From assembly GCA_027068915.1 (NCBI GenBank), contig JAMOLT010000007.1, positions 1-48,392 of the forward strand: DNA of 48,392 bases. The letters run 5' to 3'. Below are positions 7,962 through 10,802 of the stretch, in pieces. This DNA comes from Sedimenticola sp. GTDB taxonomy: Bacteria > Pseudomonadota > Gammaproteobacteria > Chromatiales > Chromatiaceae. Made by a program: the position numbers and the translations under genes. Under the pieces are notes generated by a model that had not been told where the DNA came from, searched no databases, and worked only from the letters and a program-made list of their open reading frames with translations. Each line of letters opens with the position of its first letter. Position 1 is the first letter of the stretch.

Positions 7962-7975
7962 TTGATTTGGGTCAA
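7962..7975 (+). promoter_or_regulatory. FNR/Anr-type box upstream of nrdD
   Basis: TTGATTTGGGTCAA matches the FNR consensus TTGAT-N4-ATCAA at nine of ten defined positions. It lies 80-93 bases before the nrdD start and upstream of two NrdR boxes. Oxygen-sensitive activation of an anaerobic ribonucleotide reductase by an FNR-family protein is well known in other gammaproteobacteria; operation here is inferred from the sequence alone. Confidence 0.65.
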
Positions 7976-7987
7976 AAACCCCATGCA

Positions 7988-8003
7988 ACACTATATCTTG
8001 TGG
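7988..8003 (+). promoter_or_regulatory. NrdR box 1
   Basis: ACACTATATCTTGTGG matches the NrdR consensus ACACWATATATWGTGT at 14 of 16 positions. NrdR is the ATP/dATP-sensing repressor of ribonucleotide reductase operons and binds paired boxes about three helical turns apart. The centre of the second box lies exactly 32 bp downstream. Confidence 0.7.
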
Positions 8004-8054: not shown

Positions 8055-10082
8055 ATGCCCACTCCTGCCACGGTTGCCACCCTGCCCGTCAGTCTGCACA
8101 AACGCAACGGTCGCATTGCTGCATTCGACTCGGCAAAGATCCTATCCGCTATCCGCCGCGCTGGGGAGGCCAGCGGCGAGTTTGACCAGACCGAAGCGCA
8201 GCTGCTCACCACCCAGGTCATCAAGATTCTCGCGCATCTTCCCGAACCCGTTCCCGAGGTTGAGCGCATCCAGGACATCGTTGAGCAGGTTCTGATCTCC
8301 GCCAACCACTTCGCCACCGCACGCGCCTATATCGTGTACCGCGAGCAGCACCGGCGCCAGCGTGAAGACAAGAAAACCCTGGTGGATGTCGCTGCATCGA
8401 TCAACGAGTATTTGGATCGCGCAGACTGGCGAGTAAGTGCCAATGCCAATCAGGGCTACTCATTGGGGGGCTTGATCCTCAACACCTCCGGCAAGGTCAT
8501 CGCCAACTACTGGCTGAATCATGTGTATCCACCAGAGGTCGGACAGGCCCACCGCAATGCAGATCTGCATATTCACGATCTGGACATGCTGGCCGGTTAC
8601 TGCGCCGGGTGGTCCTTGCGCACCCTGCTGCACGAAGGGCTAAACGGCGTGCCGGGCAAGGTGGAGGCCGGGCCGCCGAGGCATATGTCCTCGGCAGTGG
8701 GGCAGATCGTCAACTTCCTCGGCACCTTGCAGAACGAATGGGCAGGCGCCCAGGCGTTCAGCTCCTTCGACACGTATATGGCGCCCTTTGTACGCAAGGA
8801 CGAACTGAGCTATGCCGAAGTACGGCAATCGATTCAGGAATTGATTTACAACCTCAATGTGCCCTCCCGCTGGGGCACGCAGACCCCTTTCACCAACCTG
8901 ACCTTTGACTGGGTCTGCCCCGAAGATCTGCGTAATCAGGTTCCCGTTGTCGGGGGAGAGGAAATGCCCTTCACCTACGGCGAGCTGCAATACGAGATGG
9001 ATCTGATCAACCGTGCCTACATCGAGGTGATGACCGCCGGAGACGCCAAGGGACGGGTATTCACCTTTCCCATCCCCACCTACAATATCACCCCGGATTT
9101 TCCCTGGGAAAGCGAAAACGCCGAGCTGCTGTTCGCCATGACGGCGAAATACGGCCTGCCCTATTTCCAGAACTTCCTCAATTCTGAACTCACGCCCAAC
9201 ATGGTGCGCTCCATGTGCTGCCGCCTGCAACTGGATCTGCGCGAGCTGCTCAAGCGCGGCAACGGACTGTTCGGCTCCGCCGAGCAAACCGGCTCCCTGG
9301 GTGTGGTGACCATCAACTGCGCCCGCCTGGGGCATCTCTACCAGGGGGACGAAACCACCTTGATGGCACATCTGGATGAACTGCTGAATCTGGCCCGCAA
9401 CAGTCTGGAGATCAAACGCAAGATCATTCAGCGGCATATGGATGCCGGACTGTTCCCCTATACCAAGCGCTATCTGGGCACCCTGCGCAACCATTTTTCC
9501 ACCATCGGTGTGAATGGCATCAATGAAATGATCCGCAATTTCAGCCGGGATGCACATGACATCACGGACGACTGGGGCAGCCGGTTCGCAGAGCAGTTTC
9601 TCGATCATATCCGCAGCCGCATGCTGGAATTCCAGGAAACCACCGGCAACATGTACAACCTGGAAGCCACCCCGGCGGAAGGCACCACCTACCGCTTTGC
9701 CAAGGAAGACCGCAAGCGTTGGCCAGATATCCTGCAGGCGGGCACCGATGAAAAGCCCTACTACACCAACAGCTCCCAGCTGCCGGTGGGCTATACCGAC
9801 GACCCCTTCGAAGCCCTGGTGAAGCAGGAAACCCTGCAAAGCAAGTACACCGGCGGCACCGTGCTGCATCTGTACATGAGCGAACGGCTGTCCAGCGCCG
9901 AGACCTGCAAACGCCTGGTGCGGCGCTCCCTGGGGAGCTTCCGCCTGCCCTATATCACCATTACACCCACGTTTTCCATCTGTCCGGAGCACGGCTATCT
10001 GGATGGAGAGCACGAATTCTGCCCTCGCTGCGACGAGGAACTGCTACAGAAAAAACCCCTACAGGAGAACAGCCATGTCTGA
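8055..10082 (+). CDS. nrdD: Anaerobic (class III) ribonucleoside-triphosphate reductase, large part without glycyl-radical tail
   Basis: A 675-residue protein that reduces ribonucleotides to deoxyribonucleotides without oxygen. An N-terminal ATP-cone (about residues 10-105, PVSLHKRNGRIAAFDSAKI) gives allosteric control. The barrel follows with ADLHIHDLDMLAGYCAGWSL, RWGTQTPFTNLTFDW, SMCCRLQLDLREL and TGSLGVVTINCARLG, which contain the conserved active-site cysteines. The C-terminal zinc site is CPEHGYLDG and FCPRCDEEL. The protein then stops: the RVxGY glycyl-radical motif that ends most NrdD chains is absent and is encoded by the next, overlapping ORF. FNR-like and NrdR boxes upstream suggest anaerobic and nucleotide-dependent control. 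nrdG follows. Confidence 0.93.
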   Translation: MPTPATVATLPVSLHKRNGRIAAFDSAKILSAIRRAGEASGEFDQTEAQLLTTQVIKILAHLPEPVPEVERIQDIVEQVLISANHFATARAYIVYREQHRRQREDKKTLVDVAASINEYLDRADWRVSANANQGYSLGGLILNTSGKVIANYWLNHVYPPEVGQAHRNADLHIHDLDMLAGYCAGWSLRTLLHEGLNGVPGKVEAGPPRHMSSAVGQIVNFLGTLQNEWAGAQAFSSFDTYMAPFVRKDELSYAEVRQSIQELIYNLNVPSRWGTQTPFTNLTFDWVCPEDLRNQVPVVGGEEMPFTYGELQYEMDLINRAYIEVMTAGDAKGRVFTFPIPTYNITPDFPWESENAELLFAMTAKYGLPYFQNFLNSELTPNMVRSMCCRLQLDLRELLKRGNGLFGSAEQTGSLGVVTINCARLGHLYQGDETTLMAHLDELLNLARNSLEIKRKIIQRHMDAGLFPYTKRYLGTLRNHFSTIGVNGINEMIRNFSRDAHDITDDWGSRFAEQFLDHIRSRMLEFQETTGNMYNLEATPAEGTTYRFAKEDRKRWPDILQAGTDEKPYYTNSSQLPVGYTDDPFEALVKQETLQSKYTGGTVLHLYMSERLSSAETCKRLVRRSLGSFRLPYITITPTFSICPEHGYLDGEHEFCPRCDEELLQKKPLQENSHV

Positions 10083-10239
10083 CCAGAACATCCCACTCAA
10101 AGACGAAGAACGCACCCGCTGCGAAATCTGGACCCGGGTGATGGGTTATCACCGCCCGGTAACTTCTTTCAACCCCGGCAAGCAATCCGAATACAGCGAA
10201 CGCAGGAACTTTGAAGAATGCCGCATGCCTTGCGAATAG
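10075..10239 (+). CDS. Small glycyl-radical subunit of anaerobic RNR (split NrdD C-terminus)
   Basis: A 54-residue ORF that contains the missing end of NrdD: CEIWTRVMGYHRPVTSFNPG, then GKQSEYSERR. The glycine of RVMGY is the expected radical site that NrdG would activate. ATG 10075 overlaps the last eight bases of nrdD in another frame (+1 relative to nrdD). A good site, AGGAG at 10063-10067, lies seven bases upstream, so separate translation is more likely than an accidental frameshift, although +1 frameshifting cannot be excluded. The ORF overlaps nrdG by 22 bases. Separately annotated short NRDD proteins exist in other proteobacteria, as far as I recall. Confidence 0.85.
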   Translation: MSDQNIPLKDEERTRCEIWTRVMGYHRPVTSFNPGKQSEYSERRNFEECRMPCE

Positions 10240-10802
10240 GCGGTTTCGTTCCCTTCACCAGCATCGATTATCCGCAGCACCTGTCCGCTGTCGTATTCTG
10301 CCAGGGTTGCCCCTGGCGCTGCGGCTATTGCCACAACCAGCACCTGCTGACTTCCCGGTCAACAGAGCTGCTGGACTGGCGCGACATCCTGAAAAAACTG
10401 CACCAACGCCAGGGGCTCCTGGATGCAGTGGTTTTCAGTGGCGGAGAGCCCACCCTGCAAAAATCGCTGTACGATGCCATGGAACAGGTCAGGGCCATGG
10501 GCTTCAAGGTTGGCTTGCATACCGCCGGCTGCTACCCGGATCGTCTGAAAATCCTGCTGCCCCTGGTGGACTGGGTGGGGCTGGACATCAAGGATCTGCC
10601 GGAAAACTACCCCGCACTTACAGGAGCAGGTGGCAGCGGCAATCAAGCCTGGGATAGCCTGGATATCCTGCTAAACGCTGACATTCCGCTGCAGGTACGC
10701 ACCACCATGCACCCCGGCATGGAAAAAGAGCAGATAGCCCGGTTGTGCACAAATCTCTCCCGGATGGGGGTGACAGATCACAGCCTGCAAGCCTGCCGTT
10801 GA
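10218..10802 (+). CDS. nrdG: Anaerobic RNR-activating radical SAM protein
   Basis: A 194-residue radical SAM enzyme. FCQGCPWRCGYCHNQHL carries the CxxxCxxC cluster that binds [4Fe-4S], and VVFSGGEPTLQ is the SAM-binding GGE motif. It would generate the glycyl radical on the RVMGY peptide encoded just before it. The start at 10218 overlaps that peptide's gene by 22 bases and gives MPHALRIGGFVPFTSIDYP, the usual family N-terminus. The protein ends soon after GVTDHSLQACR; longer Pseudomonas-type homologues seem to continue for some 20-30 residues, so the C-terminus may be slightly shortened. The next 20 bases separate it from a convergent gene. Confidence 0.9.
   Translation: MPHALRIGGFVPFTSIDYPQHLSAVVFCQGCPWRCGYCHNQHLLTSRSTELLDWRDILKKLHQRQGLLDAVVFSGGEPTLQKSLYDAMEQVRAMGFKVGLHTAGCYPDRLKILLPLVDWVGLDIKDLPENYPALTGAGGSGNQAWDSLDILLNADIPLQVRTTMHPGMEKEQIARLCTNLSRMGVTDHSLQACR

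Follow-up and report, generated by a model that had tools for sequence, protein, structure and literature searches.

Where is the radical carried in an anaerobic (class III) ribonucleotide reductase whose catalytic subunit ends before the glycyl radical loop? This question is raised by the nrdD gene of the window, by which we mean the whole stretch of 48,392 nucleotides that was analysed (Table 1). The nrdD product is built from an ATP-cone, the barrel, an MCCR finger loop and a zinc site, its ATP-cone (76 bits) and NRDD (574 bits) matches both exceed the Pfam cut-offs, and the zinc-site residues C643, H646, C656 and C659 are invariant in 57 aligned rows. A sequence-only reading of this DNA had noted that the protein ends after its zinc site, and this is indeed the case, since the final 33 residues start at the first cysteine of CPEHGYLDGEHEFCPRC and hold no glycyl motif, and the match to the 562 positions of the NRDD profile covers only 2-529. 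The motif that a class III reductase carries on its own chain is instead found solely in the small ORF that follows, which includes RVMGYHRPVTSFNPGK and, as had also been pointed out, lies in the +1 frame relative to nrdD and has its own AGGAG; the two ORFs overlap by 8 nt. The small ORF covers the remaining profile positions 532-562 and by itself exceeds the curated NRDD cut-off (32.1 against 26.2 bits), and it and the NrdD of the window are the only NRDD matches in the entire source genome, in which one class I/II-type large-subunit match is also present. A weak local alignment (1.4 bits for this stretch) pairs the stretch around Gly24 with the glycyl loop at the C-terminus of T. maritima NrdD, and both this glycine and the RVMGY loop are invariant over 15 aligned rows. 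(In alignment A2 MAFFT had put the short tails in wrong places, and A2 therefore gave way to row set A4.) Furthermore, NrdD is adjoined by a dedicated radical-SAM activase as is characteristic of class III reductases, the first 22 nt of nrdG being shared with the small gene. Of the two regulatory motifs found upstream of nrdD, the FNR-like site is on its own a weak indication, since the window holds three such matches where 1.67 are expected by chance, and NrdR-box-like matches with at most three mismatches number two against 0.14 expected.

Table 1. Features of the nrdD locus in window coordinates
Feature	Coordinates	Strand	Basis
FNR/Anr-like site TTGATTTGGGTCAA, upstream of nrdD	7962..7975	+	1 mismatch to the FNR consensus TTGATN4ATCAA
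NrdR-box-like site ACACTATATCTTGTGG, upstream of nrdD	7988..8003	+	2 mismatches to the NrdR-box consensus ACACWATATATWGTGT
nrdD, tail-less class III reductase catalytic subunit, 675 aa	8055..10082	+	PRK08270 1139 bits, NRDD 574 bits
Zinc site CPEHGYLDGEHEFCPRC, retained on NrdD	9981..10031	+	sequence
Shine-Dalgarno-like AGGAG of the small gene	10063..10067	+	sequence
Gene of the putative separate glycyl-radical subunit, 54 aa, ATG at 10075	10075..10239, stop included	+	ORF, NRDD match
Conserved Cys16 codon, small subunit	10120..10122	+	locus comparison
Predicted radical glycine codon, Gly24 in RVMGYHRP	10144..10146	+	invariant over 15 rows
nrdG, NrdG2-type activase	10218..10802	+	TIGR02495 200 bits, cut-off 131

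Judging from sequence comparison, we consider it highly probable that the class III reductase is here a two-chain enzyme with a radical subunit acting in trans. That the two parts are separate chains appears near certain and that the radical is carried in trans very likely, and we infer as plausible extensions that the small subunit would be exchanged, that oxygen damage would be repaired in this way and that phages would re-arm the host enzyme. In known NrdDs a covalently attached loop inserts in the barrel and passes the radical to an active-site cysteine, the glycine being otherwise buried in the barrel, and oxygen cuts glycyl radical enzymes irreversibly at the radical site. In the two-chain enzyme the tail-less NrdD would supply the ATP-cone, the barrel, the active-site cysteines and the zinc site, and the separately translated 54-residue subunit would carry the glycine that NrdG turns into a glycyl radical. 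The small subunit must then insert its RVMG loop in the NrdD barrel, from where the radical would move on to the active-site cysteine, so that assembly would take place in trans and NrdG, acting on the small chain, could charge a free or loosely bound peptide. Oxygen would in that case destroy a cheap 54-residue part and spare the 675-residue enzyme, the small chain could be swapped, and phages would provide fresh small chains to the host enzyme. A detachable radical domain is made plausible by P. copri NrdD, since the glycyl radical domain of that enzyme, comprising zinc site and loop, is highly mobile according to PMC11226230 and would by expectation move as one rigid unit.

AlphaFold was applied to an artificially joined chain, in which the small part reached a pLDDT below 50 when the alignment held NrdD-only rows and about 53-75, with an overall pTM of 0.65, when tail rows were added, and neither model gave a reliable docking of the small part. 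In Foldseek searches of the PDB the joined-chain model was matched to the class III fold only, with class III structures as the top matches.

Among relatives the split appears to be retained across a wide clade. Within a set of 55 relatives that includes the source genome, 25 are NRDD-positive and 23 of these have a separate tail match, the other two being a one-piece form (G046) and a match that ends at a contig edge (G032). A census of the class, covering 369 genomes, gave 38 NRDD-positive ones, of which 28 have a tail-less NrdD and a separate tail, seven a one-piece form and three unclassifiable fragments (G369, G262, G199); the stop between NrdD and tail was checked in all 28 split genomes, and each tail-less NrdD has its separate tail in the same genome. 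At the level of the order NRDD is found in 146 of 210 genomes, and one-piece matches over positions 2-562 are, among the matches listed, those of G862 and G882. One-piece forms predominate in a sample of the phylum (57 of 398 genomes NRDD-positive), where they mostly have, among the matches listed, a different zinc site and an RRVCGYLG loop, as in E. coli NrdD. In the genus of G529, NRDD was found in 14 of 25 genomes; the tail is separate in 13 of these, and in the remaining one the two parts share a frame that a TGA interrupts. The usual gene order is nrdD - small gene - nrdG, and it also occurs on plasmids of Sulfuricurvum kujiense, Azospira and Bradyrhizobium. When 80 of 555 relatives from a genome scan were taken further, NrdD was found upstream in nearly all of the matches listed, the exceptions being L140, L149 and L171. 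Searching genomes for the small protein, as the sequence-only reading had suggested, hence confirms that its gene usually adjoins a tail-less NrdD, but not without exception, since in G692 (L095) nrdD and the sole small gene, although on the same strand, are 9.5 kb apart. Over a 39-codon core the pooled pN/pS is 0.118 for pairs of 12 genus copies.

Fusion had been considered for G007, G018, G029, G033, G299 and G386, in which main and tail matches have equal open-frame lengths, and was rejected; a stop separates the parts in L010, L014, L053, L022 and L066, and the joined loci do not include L049 (G029). The idea of a cysteine specific to split forms was weakened when Cys16, which is shared by 77 of 79 copies from the genome scan (the majority being NrdD-linked) and by 77 of 79 viral copies, was also found in four of ten fused forms. 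As separate observations, L053 (G033) holds an intein-like insertion in NrdD between PSRWGTQ and TPFTN, with a Cys start and a TGN end, and the NRDD matches of many order genomes break at positions 156/158 as in L053 (among the matches listed), and in-frame TAA codons occur within the NrdD match in L104 (G592) and L103 (G561), both from genomes of about 0.9 Mb, and may reflect gene decay, a different genetic code or an assembly problem.

The small protein does not always follow a tail-less NrdD, lone copies being found in phage contigs and on plasmids. A viral scan gave 277 stretches and 258 relatives, 80 of which (L186-L265) were taken further, and among the 79 viral loci with the motif NrdD is found in the locus for just one (L252) and a window-type NrdG match for none. 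Of 50 of these 80 viral records searched whole, 49 contain the small gene without NrdD and one (G817) has NrdD too, and a search of 36 viral records for NrdG2 found none in 35 and two weak matches below cut-off in G817; the records reach 212 kb and may be fragments, for which reason a missing NrdD is not proof of its absence. Neighbours were sampled at ten viral loci, of which five (L223, L205, L192, L259, L224) have clear structural or packaging genes, one a weak terminase match (L186), two a phage-family DNA polymerase (L232, L187), one an HNH endonuclease (L227) and one nothing (L220), and cultured phages gave only two weak matches. The pN/pS over the same 39-codon core is 0.163 for 92 viral pairs, pN being lowered by the choice of pairs with at least 80% amino-acid identity, and conservation of the glycyl motif in the viral set is partly by selection, since the fetching patterns contain the motif. 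With these provisos both the cellular and the viral small genes look to be under purifying selection. In six phage copies (L191, L195, L201, L206, L225, L248) the glycyl part is preceded by an N-terminal stretch that is rich in Cys, such as CAHL...C...CPTCAAY of L206, and is perhaps a metal site of its own.

On the plasmids pALVIN01 (A. vinosum) and pAt1 (A. tepidum) the small gene has no NrdD among its annotated neighbours, and what are presumed to be the same Allochromatium genomes also hold a small-gene copy adjoining NrdD. At least two small-gene copies at separate places were found in 13 of 44 genomes, which is not a frequency, since most of these genomes were chosen on account of unusual or additional NRDD matches, and some extra copies lie on small contigs where contamination is possible. 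Five extra unlinked copies (G830, G834, G835, G870, G916) have a stop inside the match, which suggests that mobile copies are gained and then decay. The second copy of G299 (L140) is found near RecT- and RecE-type genes and an NrdA-like piece.

The lone phage and plasmid copies strengthen the notion that the small subunit is exchangeable, and we lean, by a narrow measure, towards the reading that such a copy, made in the infected cell and charged by the host NrdG, would dock to the tail-less host NrdD and restart dNTP synthesis once oxygen has destroyed the radical subunits of the host, and would be a spare part in a glycyl radical system distinct from that of pyruvate formate-lyase. The small protein might conversely be a permanent, non-exchanging subunit, left by neutral gene fission and held in one tight lifelong complex. 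This is in agreement with the fact that the small gene usually adjoins nrdD, and also with the fused forms, which occur in Acidiphilium, Actinomyces oris and Geoalkalibacter, and six of which were found as joined loci in the survey of linked loci. In a quick maximum-likelihood tree with 135 rows of NrdD, of which 125 are split and 10 fused, the split/fused label changes at least seven times, six of these changes being forced by strong branches. The fused L274 and L275 are single tips inside groups that consist mostly of split rows and have good support (95), L281, L282, L019 and L105 are likewise placed among split rows, the placement of L281, L282 and L105 being unsure on account of long branches, and four further fused rows are found outside the split groups on long branches. 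In L275 (G882, from the same family as the source) the fusion is in frame and retains both the NrdD end and the start region of the small protein, the junction region reading CDDALLANKQ...ALKDEERTRCEVWTRVMGYHRP. Since support is weak for 51 of the 128 inner branches and the tree is rooted at its midpoint, the order of split and fusion events is not settled by this tree, whose rows include Omnitrophota, Verrucomicrobiota and Chloroflexota MAG records with binning as deposited, and in which the split label of L104 is doubtful owing to the in-frame TAA in its NrdD reading; some re-fusion at least would nevertheless be the simplest reading. Because fused forms are tips among split ones, separation is not mandatory and one chain works as well. 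However, a permanent subunit is in poor agreement with lone phage and plasmid copies and extra unlinked ones, which suggest the use of copies made elsewhere, and with a split that is kept across a wide clade, and we therefore regard it as a doubtful alternative that should be kept in mind.

Much less probable is that the radical site is another glycine on NrdD itself, for example that of the CPxHG motif, and that the small protein does something else. The case in point is Cupriavidus necator H16, in which plasmid pHG1 encodes an NrdD of 676 residues followed by a 142-nt gap, a 66-residue protein (WP_011154154.1) and the activase. The sequence-only reading had surmised that short stand-alone NRDD proteins may be annotated elsewhere, and rightly so, for NCBI naming calls this 66-residue protein "nrdD". 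A 1999 study of the C. necator enzyme is said to have given 76.2 kDa for H16 NrdD and to have discussed Gly650, pointing to it as the radical site; the H16 NrdD (L015) has a calculated 76.19 kDa, and its residue 650 is the glycine of the CPTHG zinc motif. The glycine of CPxHG is, however, located outside any glycyl-radical motif and replaced by asparagine in L036 (CPRHNYL), whereas the RVMGY loop of the small protein matches the C-terminal end of the NRDD profile and is invariant over the aligned rows. If Gly650 was indeed assigned as the radical site, that assignment needs review, since the glycyl motif sits on the small protein. In PMC2864759, NrdDG of H16 is cited as essential for complete denitrification and C. 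metallidurans NrdDG is listed as Rmet_5137 and Rmet_5139, with one gene number in between.

The sequence-only reading had offered two alternatives, a small separate subunit or a +1 frameshift that joins both ORFs into one chain, and the latter, although suggested by the 8-nt overlap and +1 offset of the window, is scarcely credible by comparison with other loci. Among 131 distinct linked loci, which show arrangement and not frequency since census loci are mixed with loci fetched for holding the small gene, the frame of the tail relative to NrdD is +1 in 59, +2 in 41 and the same with an intervening stop in 31. Counted from where the NrdD stop ends, the small gene starts at -41 to +425 nt (median +22, with overlap in 40 of the 131), it begins with ATG in 129 and is preceded by a Shine-Dalgarno-like motif in 127, and no frame relation or overlap is fixed across homologues as would be expected of a frameshift gene. 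In addition, the tail is unlinked in G692, and the junction RNA is no more stable than its shuffles (z = 0.58, for one 101-nt stretch folded without pseudoknots). A separate small subunit is on the other hand strongly supported by the variable gap, the three frames, the unlinked copies and the presence of its own Shine-Dalgarno motif and ATG. Four loci have no tail within 1.5 kb, namely L047, where the contig ends 186 nt on, L095 of G692, L180, in which the tail is present and the NrdD match is in two pieces, and the phage fragment L266. The count of 131 leaves aside L001, L002, L063, L065 and L041 (duplicates), L104, L017, L018, L038 and L283, and any locus with an NrdD match that stops short of residue 600.

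That the split reflects gene decay or an error in sequencing or assembly, the latter to be told by in-frame fusion in close relatives according to the sequence-only reading, has a virtually nil probability and is in our view already refuted by the comparative data, since fused relatives do exist but L275 is a single tip among split ones, and since the same layout recurs in many independent assemblies, complete plasmids included, with low pN/pS.

If the two-chain reading is true, a reductase that confines its oxygen-sensitive glycine to a disposable chain of 54 residues would give bacteria an inherent means of coping with changing oxygen levels. Several questions become testable now, such as how an activase gains access to a buried glycine, where NrdG could here act on the free small chain, and why phages carry the small gene. 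As a practical matter, if nrdD and nrdG of C. necator H16 or another species of the split type were cloned and the small gene between them left out, the enzyme would lack its predicted radical site. Within the open-licence literature, as far as its texts were accessible and with subscription journals mostly outside it, no description of a two-chain class III reductase or of a separate NrdD glycyl-radical subunit was found, and in the search for mass-spectrometric support of the small protein the P. stutzeri paper PMC10433244, in its accessible part, gave a match in the reference list only.

Among the closest known systems is the class III NrdD of E. coli, T4, T. maritima and P. copri (PF13597, PRK08270/TIGR02487), with which the present enzyme shares the profile family, the ATP-cone, the zinc site, the sequence of the glycyl loop and an NrdG-type activase alongside, but from which it differs in that the radical glycine is on a second chain and in that the canonical glycyl radical domain is itself divided, its zinc site remaining with NrdD. 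A C-terminal functional piece is also encoded by a separate gene in the split class II reductase NrdJa/NrdJb of P. aeruginosa (PMC5704485), but this enzyme belongs to another class, and its separate gene encodes a zinc domain that is rich in cysteine and serves reduction, and no radical carrier. The viral family phrog_4132 matches the small protein and three phage copies over about positions 113-156 of 179, but its profile is longer and without assigned function. YfiD/GrcA of E. coli and the phage-encoded Y06I of T4 are likewise small stand-alone glycyl-radical proteins, and according to PMC8683613 they are spare parts of pyruvate formate-lyase, the only two validated, and other glycyl radical enzymes may have spare parts too; whether there are such parts beyond pyruvate formate-lyase, a question raised there, is now testable as well. 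Unlike GrcA/YfiD, the small protein matches NRDD only and not the pyruvate formate-lyase-type Gly_radical profile (Pfam, E up to 0.1), and the cellular protein would be the radical subunit of a tail-less enzyme rather than a replacement for a damaged tail, a target with a glycyl domain of its own, as GrcA has, being absent from the window and the 28 split genomes of the class census. The links drawn from YfiD/Y06I and P. copri NrdD to the present small protein are by analogy, and as GrcA-like restorers in trans of an oxygen-cleaved enzyme the lone phage and plasmid copies are suggestive only. Many related bacteria have the same two-piece design, and some phages hold the small piece alone, much like a spare part.
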